DNA from: Sporosarcina sp. FSL K6-2383
GTDB taxonomy: Bacteria > Bacillota > Bacilli > Bacillales_A > Planococcaceae
Length of the DNA: 64,000 bases
Assembly (NCBI RefSeq): GCF_038618305.1
Contig: NZ_CP152017.1
Location: 1,031,501 to 1,095,500, forward strand
Direction: 5' to 3'
In this document: positions 17,282 through 32,097 of the stretch, in pieces
Layout of the letters: the number at the start of each line of letters is the position of its first letter
Position numbering within the stretch: position 1 is the stretch's first letter
Translations under genes and position numbers: made by a program
The notes under the pieces: model-generated
Database searches by the model: none
Seen by the model: only the letters and a program-made list of their open reading frames with translations
What the model was told of the DNA's origin: nothing

Positions 17282-20260
17282 TTAGTTACCTACGATAACT
17301 TGGGTCGTCAGTGTTTGACTGTCGACGATGTAGGTTAGGTAGAATGAGTCGCCGCGTTGGACGCCGGTGAATGTTAAGATGTTTGAACCGTTGCCTAATA
17401 CGGCTGGGACTACGGTGTCATTGTTGGAGTTGACGAGATTGGTTGCAGTTAGTTTAATCCGATTGGATGCTGTTTTTGAAATGTCTTCTCCGTATTGATC
17501 TGTGATTTTCAATGCTCCTCTTAAATCGGCGGAGGAGATGCTCACATTTGCTGCTGTTCCTGGAACATGTAGTGCTTGATCCCGAACGCTTAGACTGTTA
17601 TTTGATTGTAATTCAATTGCATTGGCGAACGGTGCTGCTTTTGTAATGATGACTGTTTGTTCGAGTGTAAATGGTTGTTGGTCGGCATTGACGATGACTT
17701 TTACAGGAATACTTTGGTCGTCCTTGTCGACGATGTCTTTATTCCCACGGACATAAATTATGCCTGACGATGCGTTATAGACTAGATCATCGTGGCCTGT
17801 AATGACGGTATATTCAGATGCCGGTACAATGATTCTGTTGCCGTCTGTTGTAATACCATAGACGATTAGCTCTCTCGTATAATTGTTTAGCGCTGAAGTT
17901 GTAGGATTATCATAAATGACATCAATCGTTTTTAATTCATAGTAAACGATGTTTGTTTTATCCGTTACTTTTACGTTGATCTCGAATGCGCTTGAATTGA
18001 TTGTTCTTGCGATACCTTTTGTATCAATTTGTTGCAATGTCAGCCTTACAGCGTTTGACCCTTTTTTCTTGCCTGTTACTGTGACTGGGTTTGTTGCGGT
18101 AACGATTTTGTTAGAAGAAAGGGCTACTTTATCGTCCAATGTTTCTACTTGGACAAAATATTTACCGGCATTTTGGGTTGTTGCGGCAGTTGCCAAATTC
18201 GCCTCTGTTAGAACAGATTCACGTCCATACTGATCGCTTATGCCAATTGTACCTTTTCCTAATGTGAAGGCTCCTCCGACTAGTAAGTTTGTTTCAATGT
18301 CTGTCGTAGAAGTAATCGTTGTTGCTTCCGCTTTGGCTTTTACTGTTACTAACAGTGTTGCGACTCTATTATTCGCAGTTGTCGCTGTGATGAGCACTTG
18401 GCGATCTGTTGTTGCGCTCGAAGAATCGGTTAGGACTAGCTTCGCTTTGCCTGTCAGTGAATCGTTTTCAATTACTGCTTTTGCATTCGTATCATTGGTC
18501 GTTATTTTTACACCATTGGCACCATTTAGCGTTACTGCGTTCGTAATTTCTTTACCATCAATACCGTGCACGACGAAAGGAACTTCGGTCTTTTCAGCAG
18601 CAACGACTAATTGTGGAGCCGCTAATGACATTGTATCTGCTTTTACGCCTTCAGTAACCGTTAATTCATATCTGTCGCTTTTACCTGTCGATTTCGAGGT
18701 AATAGTAACTGTTGCTTTACCTACTTTTTTATTTCTCGGTTGTTTTAGCTCAAGTACCGTTTGTTTTTGGCCATTAATCGTCATTTGTTTAAAGACTGGT
18801 GAGCTCACGCTGTTGTTCACATCAATGACGGATGGATCTGATACGACAATAATTACGTCCTTGGCGATATCTTGTGCAGGTACTTCCAAACCATATTGGT
18901 CTTTCGCGCTAAGCACTAAGTGGAAGTCTTCATAAGAAGCATCTACATTGAATGCTGCCTCTGAATTAACATCATTGTAAAGACCCGTCATTTTCACTTC
19001 GGAAACTAGCGATTTACTAGCCACAGTTACGATACTTGCTTTTGAAATAGATGTTGCTTTATCAGCTACGGACAGGGAGATTTTATCACCCACCTTAAAA
19101 TTAGCAGAGGCAGTTGCTTTCGTAATTTCTACTATGCCTTCAGATGGCTTCACAATCGTTTCACTGCCAGTGCCTGACACATTGGAAGTGGCAGTTACAT
19201 TTGGAACTGATGATGTCATGTCTTCGCCGTATTGGTTGACTACTTGATAGGCAATCTTCACTTTGTTGCCGACTGGATTCAGAATGGCATAGTTATTCAA
19301 ATAATTGATGGCAGTTACTTTCTCGTTTGCTACAGCTGTTGTTTTTGTGAACGCTGTTTCTGCAACACCAGTTACGGAAACGGTGTAGCTTCCTTCAGTT
19401 AACTTGGAAGCTAATTCAAGTTCGGCAGACTTTTTATCTGTTGCAAATTCGACAGCAGCGATTGAAATCGTTGAACTTCCTTTTTTCACTTCAAACTTAG
19501 CAGTTGCTGGATTGACTTCTTGGTTAAATGTCACAGTCAATGAACTAGCGCCTGTCGCTTTAAGTTCAGTGAGTTCCACTGGTTTAGCGAGTACTTCAGA
19601 TAGATTCAGATTGACCGTACGCGATAAAAACGTCGCAAATTGGCCCCTTGTTGTTGTGCTTTTTGGATTGAATTTATTTAACGTTGGGTTCGTGATATCG
19701 AAATAATCCAACACGTTAATATAGGTACGAGCAGACGCTTTTGCGGCGCTTAAGTCGGTCACATCAGGCTTGTGTTGCTGGTCAGCCACATACGCTATTA
19801 CGTCCGCGCTTTCCATTGTATTCATTAGACGTACTAATGCGATGGCCATATCCTCGCGCGTCATTTCCTCTTTGGCTAAAAGTTTGCCATTACTGCCGCC
19901 TAAAATACCGTTATCCTTAATCATTGCCGCATATTTTAGTAATTCATCTCCAGAATCCTTCATCGTGACATCTGTGAAACGGCTAATTGTTTTATAGTCC
20001 GCCGGTACTTTGAAGCCTTCGGATACTAAATATTTGCCGATTAATTTCACTACATCTGAGCGAGTGAGTGTTTTGTTCGGTTTGAACGTGCCGTCTGGAT
20101 AGCCGTTAATGACTTTTGCATTGACGAGTTGATAAATGGCCTTTTCATGAGTATTTCCTTTTAAATCTGAAAAATCAGCTGCAAATGTAGTTGGTGCGAC
20201 AGCTGTTGCGACTAATGTTGCCGCTACGGCGCTTGCTAAAAACTTACTTTTTCTTTTCAT
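17282..20260 (-). CDS. Large S-layer-type protein with three N-terminal SLH domains
   Basis: About 992 aa. Signal peptide (KFLASAVAATLVATAVAPTTFA), then three SLH domains over about residues 30-235, the first with VINGYPDGTFKPNKTLTRSD, which bind pyruvylated secondary wall polymer. The rest is a chain of beta-sandwich repeats similar to bacterial Ig-like/S-layer domains (for example LTELKATGASSLTVTFNQEV and later KITDQYGEDISKTASN). The start is ATG at 20260 with AAAGGAGGAA; the frame continues 60 codons upstream only through the structured leader and is not coding there. A paralogue with near-identical SLH architecture is at 58395. Likely a major surface-layer or cell-surface protein. Confidence 0.88.
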   Translation of the reverse strand: MKRKSKFLASAVAATLVATAVAPTTFAADFSDLKGNTHEKAIYQLVNAKVINGYPDGTFKPNKTLTRSDVVKLIGKYLVSEGFKVPADYKTISRFTDVTMKDSGDELLKYAAMIKDNGILGGSNGKLLAKEEMTREDMAIALVRLMNTMESADVIAYVADQQHKPDVTDLSAAKASARTYINVLDYFDITNPTLNKFNPKSTTTRGQFATFLSRTVNLNLSEVLAKPVELTELKATGASSLTVTFNQEVNPATAKFEVKKGSSTISIAAVEFATDKKSAELELASKLTEGSYTVSVTGVAETAFTKTTAVANEKVTAINYLNNYAILNPVGNKVKIAYQVVNQYGEDMTSSVPNVTATSNVSGTGSETIVKPSEGIVEITKATASANFKVGDKISLSVADKATSISKASIVTVASKSLVSEVKMTGLYNDVNSEAAFNVDASYEDFHLVLSAKDQYGLEVPAQDIAKDVIIVVSDPSVIDVNNSVSSPVFKQMTINGQKQTVLELKQPRNKKVGKATVTITSKSTGKSDRYELTVTEGVKADTMSLAAPQLVVAAEKTEVPFVVHGIDGKEITNAVTLNGANGVKITTNDTNAKAVIENDSLTGKAKLVLTDSSSATTDRQVLITATTANNRVATLLVTVKAKAEATTITSTTDIETNLLVGGAFTLGKGTIGISDQYGRESVLTEANLATAATTQNAGKYFVQVETLDDKVALSSNKIVTATNPVTVTGKKKGSNAVRLTLQQIDTKGIARTINSSAFEINVKVTDKTNIVYYELKTIDVIYDNPTTSALNNYTRELIVYGITTDGNRIIVPASEYTVITGHDDLVYNASSGIIYVRGNKDIVDKDDQSIPVKVIVNADQQPFTLEQTVIITKAAPFANAIELQSNNSLSVRDQALHVPGTAANVSISSADLRGALKITDQYGEDISKTASNRIKLTATNLVNSNNDTVVPAVLGNGSNILTFTGVQRGDSFYLTYIVDSQTLTTQVIVGN

Positions 20261-20292
20261 GGATGGGGTTCCTCCTTTTAAGTGAACACTGA

Positions 20293-20447
20293 TCAATTGC
20301 GCCTCGGCGTAATTGCGTTGGGATTTTGAATTGAGCTTGCTCAATTCACTCCCTTCAAAATCTCTAACATCCGCCGGAGGCTTAACTTGAATCAGCAGGG
20401 GGGGTTGAACCCCCTCTGATTGAAATGAATGCTGAATCAAGTTAAAA
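20293..20447 (-). promoter_or_regulatory. Structured 5' leader element, full copy (a)
   Basis: On the minus strand a long hairpin closed by TTAACTTGATTCAGC and its complement is followed directly by AGCCTCCGGCGGATGTTA. After an insert with its own perfect hairpin (TGAATTGAGC/GCTCAATTCA) comes ACGCCGAGGCGCAATTGA. GCCTCCGGCG and CGCCGAGGC can pair with one bulge. The element ends about 33 bases before the S-layer-type gene start. The same order is found, without the insert, at 23946-24007, and the first half at 20636-20731. Confidence 0.55.
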
Positions 20448-20540
20448 CTTTCCCTATCCTACTATCATATAGTATTTTCCAATGTAATAGGGTAATTTTG
20501 CTATAAATTTCCCATGAAATTATTTCGTTAAAGGGTAGAC
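20448..20540 (-). promoter_or_regulatory. AT-rich promoter region of the S-layer-type gene
   Basis: Between the two leader copies the minus strand carries TTACCC and, 18 bases on, TATATGAT-like sequence, a plausible promoter for the long leader. This is weak evidence from spacing only. Confidence 0.3.
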
Positions 20541-20635
20541 CAAGCTGTGTGGAGCCTTTAGCGAGTTCGTTAAGAAGTATTCAGTTTTCAATTATTTTCC
20601 TCGCATATCTAATGAGGAAGTTCACCTTCCTTTGG

Positions 20636-20731
20636 TCTGACATCCGCCGGAGGCTTTATCTGAGTTCAGTGGGGGTTTTCTGTAGCTGACGCATCGCTTT
20701 CAGTACAAAAGCATTTGCTGAAATCAGATAA
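20636..20731 (-). promoter_or_regulatory. Structured leader element, half copy (b)
   Basis: On the minus strand TTATCTGA pairs with TCAGATAA around a long loop and is followed by AGCCTCCGGCGGATGTCA, as in the full copy, but the CGCCGAGGC partner is missing. Stem bases differ from copy (a) yet pairing is kept, which points to selection on RNA structure. It lies between the terminator of the upstream gene and the S-layer gene promoter. Confidence 0.45.
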
Positions 20732-20736
20732 AAAAA

Positions 20737-20771
20737 TAGTAGCACAAACCATGGACTTGGTTTGTGCTACT
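20737..20771 (-). terminator. Terminator after the C-terminal-SLH protein gene
   Basis: A 15-bp perfect stem (TAGTAGCACAAACCA and complement), with a short loop and seven T on the minus strand, 14 bases after the stop. Confidence 0.85.
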
Positions 20772-20784
20772 AATGGTAGTGTGT

Positions 20785-22212
20785 TTAATTTAAAAACAAC
20801 ATATCATCTCGATAGTTTTGTTTGAGGTCGCTTTCCAAGAAATCAAGGAAGCGAACAATGATTGCGGAAGCCTGTGCTCTTGTTAATGGCTTATTTGGAT
20901 TGAAATAGTTCTTTTCATCGCCATTAATGAGACCGAGCTCGGTTGCAACGTATACGCTATCTTTCCCCCAAGCAGGGATTTTACTGTTATCTACATAATT
21001 TGTTCGATAGCCTGGGCTCGGCGCTCGACCCTCCATACCTAATGCCCGAACAAGAATGGCTACTGCTTGTACACGTGTAATTGGACTATCGGGCATGAAG
21101 TTTTCACTCGTTACCCCATTGATAATTCCTTTTTCAACAGCACTTTCGACAAATAGATAGTCAGGCTCTTTCGGGTCTAAGTCTTTGAATATCGGGATTC
21201 TAGGTGCTCTCTTGTTCGAAGGCTGCTCAAGAACCCGAATATCGACGGCTTTTAATACACCGACAGTATATTGATAGCGTTGCATAGGTGTATTTGGTGA
21301 GAAAAATTGTGTAGATTCATCTAAAATTCCTAAAGAATATAAGCGTTCAATGCTATCCTTTGCCCAATGCTGCGAGAGATCGCGGAATTTAGGAACAATT
21401 AATCGTTCAATTTTCGGAACCCGTTCTTGTGCTAAACGAATGGTCCCCTTACCACTCCCGTAAGGAATATTATACGTGTATTCACCAACCATTTTGGAGT
21501 TGCTAAGAACCGCATGTCCTCCAGTAAAGCTAGATAATGAAGGATCATGTGGTTCGTATTGTAATACTTTGGACTTGCTATCAGATACCTTACTTGTAAT
21601 ATATGAGCGTCCAAAGGGGTGAATGATTTCTTGGTCAATAATTTGAGTTTCGGTAGCCCCCCAGAAATTTTCATAACCAACATTACGACCAGTTAAATGG
21701 ACTGTAATCAAGTCGTTCGTATTCGTTTTATAAATCTTTCGGGCAATCATGTTTCCTGAATAATAATCTGATGCAGGACGATTATCGATAACAGTTCCTT
21801 CTGAAAACTGGTAGTCATCGAGTGTATATGTTGATTTTCCGATAGTCACTTTCTCTGAATAGCTTTTAACAGTAGATTGGGCAGTTGTTTGACCTTTATC
21901 AGTCCGTTCGGTCAAATCATCGACGTATACTACGCTACGTGATAGTTTATCACCGTTTTTACTTGTTAAAGTAAAACGATATGTTTTAGTTAGGAGGTCT
22001 TTTCGTTCTTTTTCAGTGATAGTAGCTTTTCCGCTAAATTTAATTGGGGTACCAGAGAGGAAAAAGTATTCTTCGTATGTATATTCATTAAAAACACCGC
22101 CTGAGTAATCAGCAGGTGCCGCATTTACTGAAGGTGCGATGATGAATGCACCAAACAATACCGTAAAAGATACAATTAGAATTTTTATTGAAGTACTAAA
22201 TTTTTTAATCAT
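20785..22212 (-). CDS. Secreted protein with three C-terminal SLH domains
   Basis: About 475 aa. Signal peptide (IKILIVSFTVLFGAFIIAPSVNA), a unique N-terminal domain of about 240 residues that I do not recognise, and three SLH domains over about 275-465 (FRDLSQHWAKDSIERLYSLGIL, then VEKGIINGVTSENFMPDSPITR and TELGLINGDEKNYFNP). The protein is thus wall-polymer anchored through its C-terminus, opposite to the large SLH protein next door. Start is ATG at 22212 after GAAAGGA; upstream in-frame codons lack a site. It lies 66 bases after the end of the secreted protein encoded upstream on the same strand, so both probably share the leader at 23946. Confidence 0.8.
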   Translation of the reverse strand: MIKKFSTSIKILIVSFTVLFGAFIIAPSVNAAPADYSGGVFNEYTYEEYFFLSGTPIKFSGKATITEKERKDLLTKTYRFTLTSKNGDKLSRSVVYVDDLTERTDKGQTTAQSTVKSYSEKVTIGKSTYTLDDYQFSEGTVIDNRPASDYYSGNMIARKIYKTNTNDLITVHLTGRNVGYENFWGATETQIIDQEIIHPFGRSYITSKVSDSKSKVLQYEPHDPSLSSFTGGHAVLSNSKMVGEYTYNIPYGSGKGTIRLAQERVPKIERLIVPKFRDLSQHWAKDSIERLYSLGILDESTQFFSPNTPMQRYQYTVGVLKAVDIRVLEQPSNKRAPRIPIFKDLDPKEPDYLFVESAVEKGIINGVTSENFMPDSPITRVQAVAILVRALGMEGRAPSPGYRTNYVDNSKIPAWGKDSVYVATELGLINGDEKNYFNPNKPLTRAQASAIIVRFLDFLESDLKQNYRDDMLFLN

Positions 22213-22278
22213 TTGTTTTTCCTTTCTAATCGGGGATATATGGCATATAAAATATTTATATGCCATATTGTTTGTTGA

Positions 22279-24009: not shown

Positions 24010-24392
24010 TCCACAGAAACCCTATTTGCCTAAGTATACACTATCTACCCCATATATCGTCTAAATATATGGGATTGTTAGATTCAAAATAAGATAATCC
24101 AGAATCATATGATCAGTGGGATTTATATTAAGTTCAGCAATATTTGATTGACCCCTTGGGTGAGTGACTAGGGACTAGGATACAACCGTCCCATTAAAAT
24201 AAGCCTTACCTTCGCAATAGGAAGTAATCTTGCGGGTTATTATTGTTGAAAAGGAAGCGCTAAATGGAGATTTACTAAACAAGTTGACCTATATCGACAA
24301 AAAACACATGTATACTACAAAAATAGAATCCAGATAACCGCATGAAGTAACGTAATATTTACAGAGATTTGGTTATACTGGACTACAATATA
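24010..24392. other. Divergent intergenic region without a gene
   Basis: About 380 bases between the minus-strand leader and the plus-strand riboswitch. It should hold promoters for both directions, but I cannot fix them. A sequence GGAAGCGCTAAA near 24252 resembles half of a catabolite-responsive site but has two mismatches. Confidence 0.35.
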
Positions 24393-24458
24393 GGGAACTG
24401 TGAAGTACGTACCGTAAATGGGCACCTGGGGCGTATGGAGTTGTTGGTGCAACCGACC
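24393..24458 (+). promoter_or_regulatory. Cyclic di-GMP-II riboswitch aptamer
   Basis: The sequence has the class II c-di-GMP aptamer hallmarks in order: GGGAAC, then TAAATGGGCACCTG, a variable hairpin, then GTTGGTGCAACCGACC. This closely follows the known class II form (AAATTGGGCAC, then AGTGCAACCGACC). It stands directly upstream of a terminator and of the matrix gene island. The CCGACC end of the aptamer is also the 5' strand of the terminator stem, so ligand binding would compete with termination. That makes an ON response to c-di-GMP the likely mode (inference). Confidence 0.85.
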
Positions 24459-24499
24459 TGATTAAATTTGGACAACTTGTCTAATTTAGTTGGGTTTTT
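24452..24499 (+). terminator. Riboswitch expression platform, terminator hairpin
   Basis: CCGAC and TAAATT pair with AATTTA and GTTGG, with an inner GGACAA/TTGTC hairpin, followed by GTTTTT. It sits 20 bases before the first gene start and overlaps the 3' end of the c-di-GMP-II aptamer. Confidence 0.75.
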
Positions 24500-24520: not shown

Positions 24521-24766
24521 TTGAAAAGTTTTTTTCTGTTAACAGTGCTTTTGATGGCAATGGAAGCTTTAATATTTCGTATTAATAGTCTCGCAACTAC
24601 TGAAATAAGGAATGGGATGGCTTTATCTATTGTTCCAGAAAAAAGTGCTCTCATTGCGATAGATTATGGGGGAGAAAGTATGTTTGCTGTCAAAAATAAT
24701 ACTGGACAAGCATCTAAGTTAGAAAATCACCAGTTAACGAGTGATGAAGTATATGCGGCAAGCTAG
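24521..24766 (+). CDS. Small membrane protein of unknown function
   Basis: About 81 aa with one N-terminal hydrophobic helix (FFLLTVLLMAMEALIF) and a short extracytoplasmic domain with MALSIVPEKSALIAIDY. The TTG at 24521, about 6 bases after GGGGGGA, is the likely start; an ATG at 24503 in frame lies in the terminator tail. Its 3' end overlaps the start of the histidine kinase, implying translational coupling. Position as first gene under the c-di-GMP switch suggests a role with the kinase or matrix fibres. I do not recognise the family. Confidence 0.6.
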   Translation: MKSFFLLTVLLMAMEALIFRINSLATTEIRNGMALSIVPEKSALIAIDYGGESMFAVKNNTGQASKLENHQLTSDEVYAAS

Positions 24767-26048
24767 CTTAATAAGAAAGAATCCTTCCAGTATCATGGAT
24801 TTGGGAATTTTGTATCGGGTCACTTCTCTTCTATTAACATCGCTCTTTTTTTTCCTAGGGTCTGCATCGTCATTTGTATTTAAACTAGGGTTAGTTGTGA
24901 CTCTGGGGATTGCGGCCTGGATCATCATTGATTTACAAAAAAGATATATAAAAAACACTAAAATTTTACAAGCAATTGTCTTAACGGAAACAATTGGATT
25001 GACATTGTTACTTATTCCGACAGGTGGTATTTCAAGTCCGTTCATCTGGTACGCACTCAATCCTGTACTCGTAGCAGCCTGTTTTCTGACGCCATTATTT
25101 TGCTGGGGAGCACTCATATTTTACCTTGGAAGTGCCACATTCATCGCTTACCGTCTTATAGACATAAACAATATCGTAATGATTTTTGAAGGGAAATCCT
25201 ATTTTTATCTTGTATGTTTATTAACAACATTGCTTGCGAGATTATTCTCACGGCTAACGACGGAGTTAAATTCAAAAGCAGCCTTACTAAATAGGCAACA
25301 AGACGAACTCATACAGGCCAATGAAAAACTGACTGAAACAAATCAAAAGTATCAGGAAACCTTAGAGCAAATCATGCTAGAGAGAATCTATATGGATCAG
25401 ATGATCATCAGTGAAGAACAGAATCGTATCGCCAATGAAATCCATGATAGTGTTTCACAGAGATTGTTTGGAATCGTCTATTCATTGCACAGTTTACAAG
25501 CTAAAAGTAACAGCATGACGAGGGAAGAATTGAACAAGGAGTACCAGTTCTTATCACAGTCTGCTAATACGACAATTAAAGAGCTGCGGGGGGCTATTTA
25601 CCGGTTAAGCTCGGTGAAGAAAGGTGAACAACCATTTCTCTTGCGTTTGAAAAAATATTTAGATGAATATGCACGATTAAATGACATTAGAATTGATTAC
25701 CGAATTACGGGCGATGAATTTTTCATTTCAAACGAACAAAAGGAAGCGCTTTATCGAATTATATGTGAAGCGTGTGGCAATGCGGTTCGACATGGAAAGT
25801 GCACAATTGTTGACCTGAAATTATCCTTGCTAGATGAGAAAACAGTAGTCTTTATTCAAGATGACGGCATAGGGATAAGTTCATACGTTGATAAGAAAGA
25901 ACAAGGAATTGGGCTCATCAATATGCAAAATAGCGTCAGTTCTTTTAACGGGACATTTTCAATAGAAGGGATGCTTGGTTCAGGTACAACAATAATCATT
26001 GAAATCCCAAGTACAAAAATAATGAAGAAACAAGAGGTGGCTGGATAA
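24744..26048 (+). CDS. Membrane sensor histidine kinase, NarL/DegS-LiaS class
   Basis: About 434 aa. The N-terminal half has roughly six membrane helices without a large extracytoplasmic loop. A coiled coil follows (about 180-220, NRQQDELIQANEKLTETNQKYQ), then HisKA_3 dimerisation with the phospho-accepting His in NEIHDSVSQRLFG and a HATPase_c domain with CEACGNAVRHG (N box) and QDDGIGI (G1). Start choices are GTG 24741, ATG 24744 and ATG 24753, all overlapping the upstream gene. It is followed directly by its response regulator. Stimulus unknown; placement suggests control of the TasA-like genes downstream. Confidence 0.88.
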   Translation: MKYMRQASLIRKNPSSIMDLGILYRVTSLLLTSLFFFLGSASSFVFKLGLVVTLGIAAWIIIDLQKRYIKNTKILQAIVLTETIGLTLLLIPTGGISSPFIWYALNPVLVAACFLTPLFCWGALIFYLGSATFIAYRLIDINNIVMIFEGKSYFYLVCLLTTLLARLFSRLTTELNSKAALLNRQQDELIQANEKLTETNQKYQETLEQIMLERIYMDQMIISEEQNRIANEIHDSVSQRLFGIVYSLHSLQAKSNSMTREELNKEYQFLSQSANTTIKELRGAIYRLSSVKKGEQPFLLRLKKYLDEYARLNDIRIDYRITGDEFFISNEQKEALYRIICEACGNAVRHGKCTIVDLKLSLLDEKTVVFIQDDGIGISSYVDKKEQGIGLINMQNSVSSFNGTFSIEGMLGSGTTIIIEIPSTKIMKKQEVAG

Positions 26049-26689
26049 TGAAAGTTGTTATTGTTGATGATCATCCATTGGTTAGAAAAGGCCTAAAATC
26101 TATACTTACCCTAGACGGATCAATGGAGGTACTTGGTGAAGCGGCAAATAGTAGAGAGGCATTGGAGCTTTTCAGTGAACTTAAACCGGAGTTAGCGCTT
26201 GTTGATCTTCGATTGGGAAATGAATCCGGTTTGGATCTAATAACAGAAGCCATTCGACAAGGAGCAGCTTGCAAATTCGTTGTGCTGACGTCATCAACGG
26301 AAGAAAATGATTTTAAGCAGGCCAAAGAGTTAGGCGTTGCTGGCTATGTATTAAAAGAAGCACTACCCGAAGAATTGTTACAAGCATTGCTCATTATTAG
26401 CAAGGGGAGAAAATATTACGATCAAGGAGTACTAGAATTTGTCATGAAACCACGTGGACTCGTTGAAGAAAATGGACATGTGGAAAAATTAACACCAAAG
26501 GAAAAGGAAGTCTTAATGGCACTGGGAAGAGGGTTTTCAAATAAAGAAATTTCGCAGTTCCTGTATATCACGGAGTACACTGTGAAAAAACATGTGAGTC
26601 AAGTATTAGCGAAGCTAGGACTAGCCGATAGAACACACGCCGCACTCTACGCCAATGCAACGGGCTTGGTGAGATATGTTGTAAATTAA
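26048..26689 (+). CDS. NarL/FixJ-family response regulator
   Basis: 213 aa. Receiver domain with the acidic pair VDDHP, phospho-Asp about 53 in LALVDLRLG, Thr/Ser in VVLTSS and Lys in YVLKEA. The C-terminal LuxR helix-turn-helix has LTPKEKEVLMALGRGFSNKEI and the recognition helix TEYTVKKHVSQVLAKLG. Its start overlaps the kinase stop (ATAATGA). Likely targets are the nearby TasA/SipW genes, since a 490-base gap with room for a promoter follows. That link is inference. Confidence 0.9.
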   Translation: MKVVIVDDHPLVRKGLKSILTLDGSMEVLGEAANSREALELFSELKPELALVDLRLGNESGLDLITEAIRQGAACKFVVLTSSTEENDFKQAKELGVAGYVLKEALPEELLQALLIISKGRKYYDQGVLEFVMKPRGLVEENGHVEKLTPKEKEVLMALGRGFSNKEISQFLYITEYTVKKHVSQVLAKLGLADRTHAALYANATGLVRYVVN

Positions 26690-27182
26690 TGGGCCCGGGC
26701 TCTAACACAATATGGAGTTGTATTGGAATCATTTACCTTTCATTATCTGGTACAAAAGTACACCAGACTTAAACTAAAGTAGAAACTAGCAGTAGACATT
26801 AGATATCAGAAAAATCACTCATTTGAGGGATGGGGAATTGTTTTTGACTGGGTATACTGAACGTAGTTCCATTTTCATAGTGAACGAAATAAAGTCTAAG
26901 GAAGGAGATGGCTGGCATAAAAGGAGGAACATAAGTCTATACATGCATATCCGTGGATTAGAATTGGCATTTTACTTTTTTATCGCTACTAATTAAGAAA
27001 CTATGCCAGACAAAAAGTGAAACATTAAAAGTAGCCGGCTATGAAAATGGTTAATGGAATCAGGTCAAACTGATCAAAAGTAAAAGAAAACTTTTAGCCA
27101 ACGTCGAAGAAGAAAAACAGTTTTACAAGACCCGGGAAGACAAGTAGTAAAAAAATATAAACTAAATTGGAGGAAATTAAAA
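26690..27182. other. Long intergenic region upstream of the TasA-like gene
   Basis: About 490 bases with no credible gene. It contains several ribosome-site-like AAGGAG blocks near 26900 but only very short frames. It probably holds the promoter and operator sites for the fibre gene, possibly bound by the preceding response regulator. No clear -35/-10 pair or repeat can be named. Confidence 0.35.
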
Positions 27183-27785
27183 ATGAGTATTAAAAAGAAA
27201 CTAGCTATGAGTATCGCAACTGGAGCATTGGCTGTAAGTATGATTGGCGGAGGAACTTATGCTTATTTCAATGATGTTGAAGTAAATAACAGCAGTTTTA
27301 CAGCGGGTACTTTGGATATTAATGTTGCGGGTAATGATGCAGCAAATGCAATTATTGATGTTAGCAATCTAAAACCAGGTGATATCATGACACGTAGTTT
27401 TAAACTCAATAACACTGGTAGCTTGGATGTATCGAAAGTATTATTGACATCCAATTATTCTGTCACTGATACAAATTTGAATAATGCTGGCGCAGATTTT
27501 GGTGAGCATATTAAGGTTCAGTTCGTTATCAACAATGACAAAAGGACTGAAGTTGTTCATGAAACTACTTTAAAGAATCTGAGTCAAGCAGACGTTACGG
27601 ATAGGGATCTGTTAGGATGGCTCCTTGGTGGAGAAAATGGCGGACTAAAAGCCGGTACAACGGATAACCTTACAGTTATGTTTGAATTCGTGGATAATGG
27701 CGCAGATCAGAATGTTTTCCAAGGGGATTCCTTGAAGCTTGAATGGACTTTTGATGCAAAGCAAACAGCTGGCTCATTGAGATAA
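27183..27785 (+). CDS. TasA/CalY (camelysin) family matrix fibre protein
   Basis: 200 aa. Signal peptide (KKLAMSIATGALAVSMIGGGTYA) ending in the family hallmark GGTYAYFND, recognised by SipW-type peptidases. The mature part has the TasA/camelysin jelly-roll pattern: SFTAGTLDINV, NLKPGDIMTRSFKLNNTGSLD, and a closing SLKLEWTFDAKQ. Family members form extracellular biofilm fibres and some were described as metallo-proteases (M73). The start is ATG, 8 bases after TTGGAGG. It is followed by an attenuator-like hairpin and by tapA- and sipW-like genes. In B. subtilis the order is tapA-sipW-tasA, so the order here is changed. Confidence 0.9.
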   Translation: MSIKKKLAMSIATGALAVSMIGGGTYAYFNDVEVNNSSFTAGTLDINVAGNDAANAIIDVSNLKPGDIMTRSFKLNNTGSLDVSKVLLTSNYSVTDTNLNNAGADFGEHIKVQFVINNDKRTEVVHETTLKNLSQADVTDRDLLGWLLGGENGGLKAGTTDNLTVMFEFVDNGADQNVFQGDSLKLEWTFDAKQTAGSLR

Positions 27786-27795
27786 CATATAACCC

Positions 27796-27829
27796 GGGAG
27801 GAGAGCTCTTCTCCTCCCTTATTTTATTT
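27796..27829 (+). terminator. Hairpin between fibre gene and tapA-like gene
   Basis: GGGAGGAGA and its exact complement with a 5-base loop are followed by TTATTTTATTT. An imperfect T-run suggests partial read-through, which would give much more fibre subunit than assembly factors. Confidence 0.65.
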
Positions 27830-27943
27830 CAACAAGCCATCAGTGCTCGTTCTTAAATATATTTCTCAACATATAACTCATTTTATGTTTTGAGGAATAT
27901 AATTAAAAATTTCATCGGCCAAAAATGGAAAGGCGGGATCAGA

Positions 27944-28957
27944 TTGAAAAGCAAGCGTAGACGTAGATATAAGAAAAAGAAACGCGATCTTTTCCTAATT
28001 TTAAAAATAGCACTCATTTGTTATTTAGCTATCTTTGGCGTCGGTTATATGTCGTCTGATACGTCTGCAAATTTCAGCAGCCAGTCGGAAGTTTCCCAGA
28101 CAATCACTGCCGGTATATGGGAAGTGCCGATTGCACTCATTAATCAATGCGAAGAGGAATACGAAAATGATGAGGTATCGAGTGAGGAAACTGAGTTCAA
28201 CCACGAAGACGAAGACAATAACCCAGAGGGCAAAATCGAAAAGGATGAAGTAACGAGTGGAGAAACCAATGTTGACCGCATTGACAAGGAAGATACTCCC
28301 CCAGAAGAAAACGAAGAGGATCTAGTCTCAAGCGAGGAAGCTGAAATGGATTGTGGAGACAAAGATGATGCGGCGGGCGGGGGCATCTGCGAGGGCGAAG
28401 AAAACGAAGAGGATCTAGTCTCAAGCGAGGAAATTGAAATGGACTGTGGGGACAAGGAAGATGCATCTAAGGAAATAGATGAAAAGGATGCTGCAGGCGA
28501 GGTCTTCTGCGAGGGAGAAGAAAATAAAGAAGAGGATACAGTTTCAAGTGAGGAAGCCAAAGTAAACTGTAAGAATAATGATGATAAGTCTGAAGAGGAT
28601 AACGACATAGAAGAAGCTAGTCAGGAAAATGAGATAGATGGTTCAGATGGGGAAATTGGTAATATTGAGGGGACTCAAGAAGAATTGAATGCCAGCACAG
28701 AGAATGAGCAGGAAGAGCCTGAAAGTGAAAATCAAAAACAACCGGATGGTAAGAATGAACCTGTAAACACATCAAAAGAAAAGATTCTAACTGACGAAGA
28801 TTCTGCAAATGATAAAGCTTCAGAAAATAGTTCTGATAAAAAGAAAGACGAAGAGATGAACGAAGCCATAAAAGAACAAAAAAAGAGTGCGGAAGGTGAT
28901 ATAAATGAGAAAGAAAAAAACAACGAAAACGAAAAAGATGATGAAGTGGGTAAATAG
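27944..28957 (+). CDS. TapA-like matrix assembly protein with acidic Cys-bearing repeats
   Basis: About 337 aa. Highly basic start (KSKRRRRYKKKKRD), one membrane/signal helix (LFLILKIALICYLAIFGVGY) and a TSANFSSQSEV segment recalling DTSAAF of TapA/YqxM. After that the protein is an extremely Glu/Asp-rich tail. It contains imperfect repeats of 31 codons (starting near 28304 and 28397, a third near 28517) with EENEEDLVSSEE and MDCGDK, so Cys recurs at regular places. Start is TTG after AAAGGCGGG. It overlaps sipW by 53 bases. TapA in Bacillus anchors and nucleates TasA fibres; the same job is inferred here from position and layout, not from strong identity. Confidence 0.65.
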   Translation: MKSKRRRRYKKKKRDLFLILKIALICYLAIFGVGYMSSDTSANFSSQSEVSQTITAGIWEVPIALINQCEEEYENDEVSSEETEFNHEDEDNNPEGKIEKDEVTSGETNVDRIDKEDTPPEENEEDLVSSEEAEMDCGDKDDAAGGGICEGEENEEDLVSSEEIEMDCGDKEDASKEIDEKDAAGEVFCEGEENKEEDTVSSEEAKVNCKNNDDKSEEDNDIEEASQENEIDGSDGEIGNIEGTQEELNASTENEQEEPESENQKQPDGKNEPVNTSKEKILTDEDSANDKASENSSDKKKDEEMNEAIKEQKKSAEGDINEKEKNNENEKDDEVGK

Positions 28958-29513
28958 CTTTGTCTCCGGCATATTGATGGTCCTGTTGATTAGTGTAGCT
29001 TCCATAGTAGTTATATCGAAAGCCTCCGGCGGAGAACCACAGCTTTTTGGTTACCAATTAAAAACAGTTCTGTCGGGATCCATGGAGCCGGGAATGAAAA
29101 CCGGCTCGATCATTGCCGTAAAATTAGCCGAAGATAAAACGGGTTTAAAAAAAGGCGATGTTATCACATTCCAAGAAGAAGAGATTTTGATTACACACCG
29201 AATTACGGAAGTAGTCAAGAGTGGAGACTCCGTACTTTACCGGACAAAGGGAGATAACAACAATGCAGAGGATGTGAATCCAGTTCTGTCTGACAATGTG
29301 GTGGCGGAGTATACAGGTTTTACATTGCCTTATGTAGGATACTTCATTAACTTCTCTCAGTCGAAGAATGGTGCATTTTTACTGTTAATACCTGGATTCC
29401 TGTTGCTGATATACTCCGCAATTACGATTTGGAAAGTGCTATCTGAAATCGAATTGCGTCCGAAAAAACAAGTAGATTTAGTAGAGGAAGATGGCGAGAA
29501 AAGTACTTCCTGA
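28905..29513 (+). CDS. sipW: SipW-type (ER-type) signal peptidase I
   Basis: 202 aa. Two membrane helices (about 19-37 and 160-180) flank the catalytic domain. The nucleophile is Ser59 in VLSGSMEPGM and the general base is His98 in ITHRI, replacing the Lys of ordinary bacterial signal peptidases, which is the SipW/ER class. Later boxes include TKGDNNNAED. It would process the TasA-like fibre protein and probably the TapA-like protein. The start ATG lies inside the 3' end of the tapA-like gene after GGAAGGTGAT. Confidence 0.93.
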   Translation: MRKKKTTKTKKMMKWVNSFVSGILMVLLISVASIVVISKASGGEPQLFGYQLKTVLSGSMEPGMKTGSIIAVKLAEDKTGLKKGDVITFQEEEILITHRITEVVKSGDSVLYRTKGDNNNAEDVNPVLSDNVVAEYTGFTLPYVGYFINFSQSKNGAFLLLIPGFLLLIYSAITIWKVLSEIELRPKKQVDLVEEDGEKSTS

Positions 29514-29548: not shown

Positions 29549-30211
29549 ATCAAACCTTTCAGATTACTTCCTTTCCTTCTATTAATTATTAGTGGAATCT
29601 GTTTCCTTCCCGTGACGAGTGTATTTGCAGATGTTGAAAACGACGCAGCTGAGACTGATTTAGAGATCAGTCTTTCACCAAAAGATACTTTATTTGATAT
29701 TACTAATATGAAGCCGGGTGATTGGGCGCCAAGGACCATTACAGTTCAGAATTCGGGAAGTAAAGATTTTGTCTACCATATGCAGTTGCAAAACAGTGGA
29801 GAAGTGAAGCTTTTCAATGAGCTGTTGTTGGAAATTAAAGTAGGCGATATAGAATTGTATACAGGGAAATTGGCCGCACTAAAATCTTTGCCGGAAAGAA
29901 AACTCACAAGTGGCACCGAAGAAAATTTAAATATCACTATTCGTTTTCCGGAACATCTTGGAAATGACTTCCAAGGGCTAGAGTCGGCATTTGTTTTCGC
30001 TTTTACAGCGGAAGGAAAAGATAACGCGGCAGCCCAAGCGATGACCAAAGTACAGATTGACAGCGGAGTTCTAGCAACGACTGGGTTCGGACTGCCTGGC
30101 AAATCGTCAAATATAGTTACGCTGATGTTTTTAGGTTCTATACTTGTGACAGGTGGAATTGTATTGTTGATTATTAGGCGTTACAGACGTGTTTCTCGTT
30201 TCCTCAATTAA
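29549..30211 (+). CDS. Predicted wall-anchored TasA-island surface protein with apparent ATC start
   Basis: About 220 aa if read from ATC at 29549. That codon sits 9 bases after a perfect AAGGAGG and opens a textbook signal peptide (KPFRLLPFLLLIISGICFLP, cleavage after VFA). The first conventional start in frame, GTG at 29612, lies inside that signal peptide. The mature part has a camelysin-like phrase, ITNMKPGDWAPRTITVQNSGS. The C-terminus has LATTG (about 175-179), a hydrophobic helix and a RRYRR tail, the layout of a sortase signal. Last gene of the matrix island, 35 bases after sipW. Either a non-ATG start or a one-base error must explain ATC. Confidence 0.7.
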   Translation: MKPFRLLPFLLLIISGICFLPVTSVFADVENDAAETDLEISLSPKDTLFDITNMKPGDWAPRTITVQNSGSKDFVYHMQLQNSGEVKLFNELLLEIKVGDIELYTGKLAALKSLPERKLTSGTEENLNITIRFPEHLGNDFQGLESAFVFAFTAEGKDNAAAQAMTKVQIDSGVLATTGFGLPGKSSNIVTLMFLGSILVTGGIVLLIIRRYRRVSRFLN

Positions 30212-30254: not shown

Positions 30255-30450
30255 TGGCTGAATCTAGAAAAAAACGGTACAGTCACGCACGTCGAGTGTG
30301 CAATAGGTAATTATCCACAAGTCCTCACCTGAAATAGATTATTTAAAATAGTGTGACAAGACGATCGGAATTATAGTATTCTATTTAAGAGAGAGACTAA
30401 AATTACACAAGTAATTATTCATACAACAATAACAATAAAGGAGGAATTTG

Positions 30451-32097
30451 ATGAAAAAATCGTGCAGGCTGGCTTTCGTTTTTGTTTTTGTCTCGAGTCT
30501 TTTTATTGCATATACGTCGGCAGATTCGTATGCGGAGGATAAGGTGCTCAATGACGTTAGATTGGGAAGTTATTATTATGAATCTGTATTGAGTTTAAGT
30601 GAGCGGGGAATCATTAGTGGGTTTAACGATGGTACGTTTAAGCCCAATCAAGCTGTGACGCGTGGACAAGCAGCCAAGATTTTGGCACATGTGCTTGAGC
30701 TTGATATGGAAAATGTGGAGGATCCGAAATTTCGGGATGTGAAGCCAAATCATCCGTACTATAAGGAAATTGCAGCGTTGGCGAATGCTGGTGTGATTAG
30801 CGGCTTTGAAGGCGATACGTATAAGCCGGATCGTACATTGTCGAGAGCGCAAATGGCCAAAGTTATTACGGAGGGCTTTCGTTTTGATGTGGAGAAAATG
30901 GAAAAACTACCGTTTACCGATGTGAAAAGCACGGTATGGTATGCGGATTATGTACAAACATTGGTTGCGCACAATATTACAACGGGGGTTACTGCTACAG
31001 GCTTTGAGCCAAATCATGCCGTAACGAGGGGGCAGCTCGCTACGTTTATTACGCGTAGTGAAAAGGCGGCTATGCTTTTTAAGCCTCTTGTTATTGCAGG
31101 AAATGGTGGTTTTGATTTTCTTGACGGGAATGCAATGGATGCGTCATTTCGCTCTCCCGCCAGCCTAGTTGTGTTGGCGGACGGGGCTGTTTTGATTTCA
31201 GATCGTCAAAATCAGTTGATTCGAAAACTGCGAGGCGGGATCGTTTCTACGTTTGCGGGGACAACGTTTGGGTTGAATAATTGGGAACTTCCTGAGGGCG
31301 GTCTCCATGATGCGGTGAAAGAAACAGCAGTATTTAACGATCCATCTGGAATGGTTGCTGATCGTGAAGGAAACATTTATATCGCGGATGCATCGAATCA
31401 TGTCATTCGTAAAATCGCTACGAGTGGTGAAGTGACGACCGTTGCTGGAGATGGACTGCCTGGTGATGAGGATGGAATTGATGGAAATACGCGATTTAAT
31501 CAACCGCAGGATGTAGCGATTGCAGCAGATGGAACGCTCTATGTGGCCGACACATTAAATCATTTAATTCGGAAAATCGAGCCAAATGGAAAGGTGACGA
31601 CATTAAATGCTCCTTCCAACCGTCCCATTGAGGTGGTGGCTGGCGACATTGAGAGTGCTGGTGACTTCCAAGATGGTGATTTGAAACATGCGAAGTTTAA
31701 TGAACCATCGGGATTAGCGATTGATAGCAAAGGGAATTTATATGTCAGTGACACTGGTAATCAATTGATTCGTTATATCAATTTTTCTACCAATACTGTA
31801 ACGACGGTTGCTGGGAAAAGTGTAAACAACGGAACATTATATGCAGACAGTGGATATCGAGACGGGGCGGCACTTGAGGCACTGTTCCATTCACCAAGTG
31901 GAATGACAGTAACGGCAGAGGGAGGGGTTCTGATAGCAGATCGTTTAAACCATTCAGTACGTTATTTGTTGAACGGGAAAGTGACGACACTTGCAAGGAA
32001 TGGTTTGAGTTATCCAACAGATGTTGCAGTTCAGGATGGAATGATTTTAATAGTGGATAGCTATCACAATCAAATCCGACAAATACAATTTAAATAA
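30451..32097 (+). CDS. SLH-anchored NHL-repeat beta-propeller protein
   Basis: About 548 aa. Signal peptide (LAFVFVFVSSLFIAYTSADSYA), three SLH domains over about residues 35-205 (GIISGFNDGTFKPNQAVTRG; GVISGFEGDTYKPDRTLSRA; NITTGVTATGFEPNHAVTRG), then about six NHL repeats. These have phrases such as DREGNIYIADASNHVIRKI, AADGTLYVADTLNHLIRKI and DSKGNLYVSDTGNQLIRYI, which build a six-bladed propeller. It is therefore a surface-displayed binding scaffold, target unknown. Start ATG 30451, 6 bases after AAAGGAGG. It stands alone, with terminators on both sides. Confidence 0.88.
   Translation: MKKSCRLAFVFVFVSSLFIAYTSADSYAEDKVLNDVRLGSYYYESVLSLSERGIISGFNDGTFKPNQAVTRGQAAKILAHVLELDMENVEDPKFRDVKPNHPYYKEIAALANAGVISGFEGDTYKPDRTLSRAQMAKVITEGFRFDVEKMEKLPFTDVKSTVWYADYVQTLVAHNITTGVTATGFEPNHAVTRGQLATFITRSEKAAMLFKPLVIAGNGGFDFLDGNAMDASFRSPASLVVLADGAVLISDRQNQLIRKLRGGIVSTFAGTTFGLNNWELPEGGLHDAVKETAVFNDPSGMVADREGNIYIADASNHVIRKIATSGEVTTVAGDGLPGDEDGIDGNTRFNQPQDVAIAADGTLYVADTLNHLIRKIEPNGKVTTLNAPSNRPIEVVAGDIESAGDFQDGDLKHAKFNEPSGLAIDSKGNLYVSDTGNQLIRYINFSTNTVTTVAGKSVNNGTLYADSGYRDGAALEALFHSPSGMTVTAEGGVLIADRLNHSVRYLLNGKVTTLARNGLSYPTDVAVQDGMILIVDSYHNQIRQIQFK

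Follow-up and report, generated by a model that had tools for sequence, protein, structure and literature searches.

A c-di-GMP-II riboswitch before a kinase/regulator operon in Sporosarcina and its probable link in trans to the calY matrix gene

A c-di-GMP-II riboswitch lies upstream of a biofilm-matrix island in Sporosarcina sp. FSL K6-2383, and the locus raises the question of how the second messenger could reach the matrix genes. Does RNA polymerase read from the riboswitch leader into the island, or does the kinase/regulator operon that stands between them pass the signal on? The locus was analyzed in a window of 64,000 nucleotides, meaning the whole stretch of DNA under study, and was compared with genomes of the host genus and family. 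The reading favored here, at a probability of roughly 0.6, is that a transcriptional-ON c-di-GMP-II riboswitch doses the kinase/regulator operon and that the regulator acts in trans on the calY promoter.

The aptamer occupies positions 24384-24466 of the + strand. A covariance-model search of the window, the check proposed in an earlier sequence-only reading, matched the full RF01786 model there at 60.9 bits (E 4.2e-11), over the gathering cut-off of 53.5 bits, and the class II consensus motifs quoted in that reading are present. The c-di-GMP-II family was the one Rfam family found in the 64-kb window, and this aptamer is the sole RF01786 match in the 3.67-Mb genome, which has nine GGDEF proteins. 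Canonical pairs fill 18 of the 22 model pairs in the window aptamer. Further evidence comes from an alignment of 55 aptamers, made after a duplicate row and three that were partial or poor had been excluded. The covariation score was 0.337, against 0.161 in shuffles; the pseudoknot was paired in 100% of cells, with 13 double-change cells, and helix P3 in 96.6%, so that covariation supports P3 and the pseudoknot. P1 as a whole was paired in 56.6% of cells, its outer part being poorly kept. Among the columns at least 90% conserved in a set of 58 aptamers, the window aptamer departs at a single position, 24443, which is G here (and in G137) and A in 56 of the 58. Judged by covariance model and alignment, the window riboswitch is real and well-formed, and as an aptamer it is ordinary. 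The Paenisporosarcina aptamer L032:4616-4699 has the pseudoknot GTGCC/GGCAC in place of the usual GCACC/GGTGC, a double compensatory change. Two genomes carry two matches head to tail that slightly overlap (G008:C1:1410888-1411046, which is L083, and G239:C51:20815-20973), and these are possible tandem class II aptamers, although the first G008 match scores only 29 bits.

A terminator hairpin lies at 24455-24496 (+) and is followed by a T run. It has 19 pairs, a folding energy of -16.6 to -17.2 kcal/mol and a z of -4.5 against shuffles. The overlap between aptamer and terminator that had been claimed from the sequence holds, in that the 5' arm of the hairpin contains the 3' strand of P1. Because the closing helix and the terminator share a strand, c-di-GMP is predicted to block termination and switch the operon ON, which is also the sense predicted earlier. 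The unliganded leader folds into the terminator form at -32.7 kcal/mol, compared with -15.2 kcal/mol when the aptamer pairs are enforced, an energy that does not count pseudoknot and ligand contributions. The same sense was predicted at most related loci. The 58 aptamers (39 from the host genus, the window's own, six from named genomes and 12 from the family's other genera; a further 12 places listed family-wide lie outside the set) were sorted by a heuristic of our own, according to whether the 5' arm of a terminator overlaps P1 or the P1 3' strand complements the Shine-Dalgarno sequence of the first gene. This gave 36 terminator platforms, of which G009:C7 and G023:88388 could be Shine-Dalgarno types, 18 Shine-Dalgarno platforms and four unclassified. 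On both platforms the ligand is predicted to turn expression ON, in other words at 54 of 58 loci. An OFF-type switch was considered and set aside, as no classified locus supports it; the four unclassified loci are G044:89882, G067, L036 and G206:1323004.

The putative promoter of the riboswitch spans 24347-24379 (+) and consists of GTAACG, a 21-nt spacer and TATACT (24374-24379). Spo0A-activated promoters have 0A boxes and a TTGACA-like hexamer 21-22 nt from the -10. A TTGACA-like hexamer with at least four of six matches stands 21 nt from the -10 in 26 of the 58 aptamer promoters, in a scan of spacings 20-22 made without a shuffled control, and the window promoter has a poor hexamer that matches TTGACA at three of six positions. 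The 21-nt spacing is a weaker hint of a Spo0A-type promoter. If this reading is right, the leader would be a meeting point of starvation signalling and c-di-GMP.

What does the riboswitch control directly? The reading of a sensor kinase and regulator pair downstream was confirmed by profile searches (PF07730, PF02518, PF00072 and PF00196, all over cut-offs), and this two-component operon is the predicted first target of the switch. The histidine kinase gene (24741-26048, +) encodes a membrane part, HisKA_3 and HATPase domains, and its H-box and ATPase domains are intact. The NarL/LuxR-type response regulator gene (26048-26689, +) encodes Response_reg and GerE domains, and the receiver residues D7, D8, D53, T81 and K103 are intact. 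The small ORF before them (24521-24766, +) had been taken for a small membrane protein. Comparison with relatives places its start at the TTG at 24521 and identifies it instead as the truncated remnant of a secreted protein. Its alignment covers residues 1 to about 64 of the relatives' proteins, and it resembles only the N-terminal 60-70 residues of secreted proteins of 135-218 aa.

Several relatives have a fuller operon, in which the aptamer is followed by the 135-218-aa secreted protein, a protein of ~370 aa (DUF5305 in the one tested), a kinase of ~565 aa and the regulator. The DUF5305 gene is absent from the window operon. A remnant of it was sought at 26690-27182 by comparing translated pieces with the relatives' proteins and was rejected. 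The one longer match (37 aa, 57%), with a short ORF that precedes calY in G044, overlies the conserved promoter region and was therefore read as conservation of DNA rather than of a gene. The window kinase also lacks ~130 residues between its membrane part and the H-box. In one representative of the relatives this missing domain had no Pfam match, and its PDB profile matches were weak (best E 0.09). A model built from Paenisporosarcina L032 (mean pLDDT 82.7, 15 sequences) matched 35 PDB chains at E <= 0.001, mostly LuxR-type ligand-binding and GAF domains, with TM-scores mostly of 0.45-0.7. On the strength of these structure matches to a model, the domain is labelled GAF-like.

In the island, calY (27183-27785, +) encodes a camelysin/TasA-like fibre protein. 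It had been named TasA, and the profiles place it in the camelysin/CalY family (PF12389 at 272.6 bits, cut-off 22.5), whereas the TasA equivalog NF046066 reaches 103.7 against a cut-off of 450. CalY residues 29-107 match the solved matrix-protein chains 8aur and 5of1. Likewise, the gene called TapA (27890-28957, +) is better described as encoding a TapA-like acidic protein, with TIGR04087 at 41.6 bits, under the cut-off of 80. The signal peptidase SipW (28905-29513, +) was named correctly (NF046067 at 288.6 bits, cut-off 190). A second secreted protein of the SipW cluster (29549-30211, +) matches PF12389 weakly, at 31.1 bits against the cut-off of 22.5. There is no ATG, GTG or TTG at 29549-29551, where its relatives start; the aligned start reads CGT ATC AAA behind a good ribosome site, so that the gene either starts unusually, starts later at the GTG at 29612, or contains a sequence error. 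On either side of the island lie S-layer-homology (SLH) surface proteins, at 17282-22266 (-) and 30448-32097 (+); those at 20785-22266 and 30448-32097 were called by Pfam and that at 17282-20440 by the look of its sequence.

By alignment, calY has a promoter region of its own that is largely conserved in relatives. The sequence TATACTRA occurs in all 13 aligned calY upstream regions (12 genomes), 170-375 bases before the start. Most of the 13 also have a TGGYRCnAAAGTnYRCCA element, a repeat like AAAGTAGAA and a box near -35. The window copies of these elements fall within 26747-26866 (+). They comprise the inverted repeat CTGGTACAAAAGTACACCAG at 26747-26766, a candidate operator of the regulator, further conserved boxes at 26773-26785 and 26810-26829, and the -10 region TATACTGAACGTAG at 26853-26866, with TATACT at 26853-26858. 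The operator core occurs once in the host genome at one mismatch or fewer, as does its reversed control. A larger regulon in the host genome was considered and rejected, as the operator core occurs once and a second pattern once.

How closely does the riboswitch travel with calY? RF01786 was found in 28 of 68 genomes of the host genus (27 over the cut-off) and in 48 of 261 genomes of the family, by searches whose filters can lose weak matches. PF12389 was matched in 28 of the 261 genomes, strongly in 26. The riboswitch is present in 24 of these 26 strong-calY genomes, against 24 of the remaining 235 (Fisher 1.6e-18, uncorrected for descent). In 20 of the 24 genomes with both, an aptamer lies within 8 kb of calY. 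The distance is 25-34 kb in G204 and G206, the two are on different contigs in G040, and in G041 they are about 1.35 Mb apart, yet calY keeps its promoter pattern there.

One obvious model is that a single messenger runs from the riboswitch through the kinase and regulator genes into calY and beyond, as implied by the earlier claim of direct control in cis. The window itself and three other genomes (G011, G018 and G023) have the same strand and order, and a consensus scan found no intrinsic terminator between 26689 and 27183, so that some read-through into calY may occur in the window itself. Such scans did no better than shuffles (promoters 17 vs 18.8, terminators 3 vs 3.7) and missed the riboswitch terminator, and they were therefore used only as pointers. 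However, the order seen in the window is found in only these four of the 20 near-linked genomes. Twelve pairs are divergent (G004, G014, G020, G021, G035, G038, G039, G044, G219, G220, G224 and G226; in G038 the aptamer close to calY scores 49.5 bits, below the cut-off, and that genome's stronger one is also divergent), and in four calY is upstream on the same strand (G009, G199, G207 and G208). Read-through thus cannot be the shared mechanism, since 16 of 20 genomes have no calY downstream on the same strand. The separate conserved calY promoter also argues against it, as does a terminator after calY (27796-27818, +), which comes from the scan that as a whole was not above shuffles. Direct cis control of the island is accordingly not borne out, and a single read-through messenger is very unlikely. 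Given these gene orders, most of the link has to be in trans, with the regulator as its presumed carrier.

Does the calY promoter answer this regulator or another one? The combined promoter pattern gave 30 sites in 26 of the 261 family genomes, 20 of them upstream of calY, six upstream of a secreted helical protein cluster and four elsewhere (G001, G024, G025 and G064). The reversed pattern gave 17 sites, so the argument rests on where the sites lie rather than on how many there are. Outside the set from which the pattern was built, 10 of 14 strong-calY genomes have it upstream of calY. The four misses are G009, G040, G072 and G144, and of these G072 and G144 are the calY genomes in which no RF01786 was found. 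This distribution favors a dedicated regulator of calY that accompanies the riboswitch and would act in trans. The alternative is that the riboswitch/kinase operon regulates something else and that the calY promoter answers other regulators, for example of SinR or Spo0A type. The regulator site at calY is a candidate only, RF01786 occurs in 24 of 235 family genomes without strong calY, some aptamers precede other genes such as those for GGDEF-EAL proteins or a pilus ATPase operon, and the promoter pattern also stands before the helical protein cluster. The co-occurrence in 24 of 26 genomes makes this alternative unlikely, as does the absence of the pattern from calY genomes lacking the riboswitch, of which there are just two. 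A further possibility is that sensing and signalling by the kinase branch have ceased here and that only the riboswitch leader is in working order. Lacking two features of its relatives' operons, the window operon may be decaying: the secreted protein is truncated, the DUF5305 gene and ~130 kinase residues are gone, and no DUF5305 was found anywhere in the host genome, in a weak search whose controls matched nowhere either. However, the kinase H-box and ATPase domains, the five receiver residues, the reading frames, the terminator, the pseudoknot and the calY boxes are all intact, and shortened kinases stand directly behind the aptamer in G020, G021, G035, G036 and G038 too. That the window's kinase branch has ceased to work is quite improbable.

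In the favored reading, dosing of a regulator that acts in trans, the leader would fold into the terminator without c-di-GMP and the operon would be mostly silent. With c-di-GMP, P1 would hold the 5' arm of the terminator and RNA polymerase would read into the kinase and regulator genes. The regulator, probably phosphorylated by its own kinase, would act at the calY promoter (-10 at 26853) by contacting the inverted repeat and the boxes upstream of the -10, leading to CalY fibres. In other words, c-di-GMP would set the dose of a matrix regulator rather than cause simple read-through into matrix genes. The aptamer and terminator (by sequence and structure), the gene content, the conservation of the calY promoter, the gene orders and the absences of domains and kinases are observations. 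We infer that the ligand binds, that the switch is of ON sense in the cell, that the regulator binds near calY, and that it activates rather than represses. The six helical-protein loci with a calY-type pattern (L065, L067, L070, L073, L074 and L077) encode three secreted proteins of about 140, 257 and 240 aa, for which Pfam gives weak helical matches only, and the clusters adjoin aptamer-regulator units or SipW islands. The cluster may be another target of the regulator.

Relatives often lack the kinase, and there the riboswitch may be the main input. Twenty aptamers of the genus precede a full regulator without a window-like kinase, a twenty-first (G061) precedes a regulator fragment, and four more kinase-less regulators occur in another genus of the family. 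In 10 of 11 genomes with only kinase-less riboswitch regulators, no kinase above about 30% identity was found (E <= 1e-20), in a search that detected the kinase in all four positive-control genomes. G011 has a kinase at 63% identity about 95 kb away on the same contig. On a tree of 58 rows the kinase-less regulators need four changes (bootstrap 3-5), of which well-supported branches force only one. At least one of the five receiver residues is altered in 16 of 24 kinase-less regulators and in none of 33 kinase-paired ones, although the altered rows, clustered as they are in a few related groups, do not count as independent cases. The commonest change is K to L. For this tally three starts were re-read, S was accepted for T, and the frame-broken regulator of G008:C8/L031, the G061 fragment and a duplicate G038 row were excluded; a Fisher p of 2e-4 was computed on an earlier tally of 11/20 vs 0/17. 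These patterns suggest, at a little under even odds, that the riboswitch repeatedly took over the two-component input. Sensor parts (the secreted and DUF5305 partners, the membrane segment and the GAF-like domain) would have been lost before the kinase, and receiver residues would also have been lost, leaving the riboswitch and a LuxR-type regulator as a stand-alone c-di-GMP sensor for fibre matrix genes. The window would represent an intermediate stage. In S. jiandibaonis (L031 / L082, G008:C8) the riboswitch regulator is split in two frames of 62 and 158 aa. At L057, L059, L063 and L072 the next gene after the riboswitch-linked regulator encodes about 832-837 aa, and its product is a MalT-like LuxR regulator in the one tested.

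In B. subtilis, the tapA-sipW-tasA operon is under SinR and AbrB. In the CsgD-curli system of E. coli and with VpsT of Vibrio cholerae, c-di-GMP raises or activates a LuxR-type matrix regulator, and in E. coli the output is an amyloid fibre. Proteins carry the c-di-GMP signal in those two systems, whereas a riboswitch would carry it here. Like the B. subtilis operon, the window island brings together a CalY/TasA-like fibre protein, SipW and a TapA-like protein. It differs in that calY comes before the genes for the TapA-like protein and SipW, has a separate promoter whose operator is another one, and is accompanied by a c-di-GMP riboswitch and a regulator; SinR control in B. subtilis appears in excerpts of PMC8470499. 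Nesting of an RNA switch before a two-component system, put forward as distinctive in the sequence-only reading, stands as an arrangement. In principle it had already been published, since excerpts of the work on C. difficile cmrRST (PMC8844915, PMC6837544, PMC12548384) describe a class II riboswitch, Cdi-2-2, that positively controls a two-component operon. According to the same excerpts, CmrR and CmrT are OmpR-family proteins and CmrT is a pseudoreceiver, the system affects surface behaviour and has an invertible DNA switch, and CmrR lowers biofilm in vitro. The window regulator is instead of NarL/LuxR type (Response_reg and GerE), and a conserved calY promoter and a graded loss of kinase parts in relatives are found here, while those excerpts report no calY or SipW neighbour for cmrRST. 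A c-di-GMP riboswitch for a surface protein is also described, in the excerpted account, in a Bacillus relative, B. thuringiensis (PMC4933901), where the class I riboswitch Bc2 acts directly on the cap adhesin gene with no intervening regulator. In the open-licence literature, no report was found that ties a c-di-GMP riboswitch to TasA, CalY or SipW, or that describes the wiring to calY or the loss of the kinase. If true, the favored reading would give a concrete path in soil Bacillota from c-di-GMP through an RNA switch, a regulator and the calY promoter to a protein matrix, one open to testing in harmless species. It would also make of these genomes a natural series, along which a riboswitch may have taken the place of kinase signalling and the evolution of a signalling input could be traced stepwise.

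A search of the named genomes for the kinase gave 25 loci, and RF01786 lies upstream of the kinase operon in seven of them (L031-L034, L036, L046 and L047). At 17 others, several on short contigs, no aptamer was found at the thresholds used. At the remaining locus a c-di-GMP-I-GGC aptamer (L041:156-240) replaces the class II aptamer before a related kinase-regulator operon, as if one riboswitch class had been exchanged for the other in place. Other c-di-GMP-II aptamers of the genus (L080, L084, L087 and L089) stand before genes for a VanW/G5 protein with a pilus-type ATPase, an Ig-like repeat protein and two GGDEF-EAL proteins.
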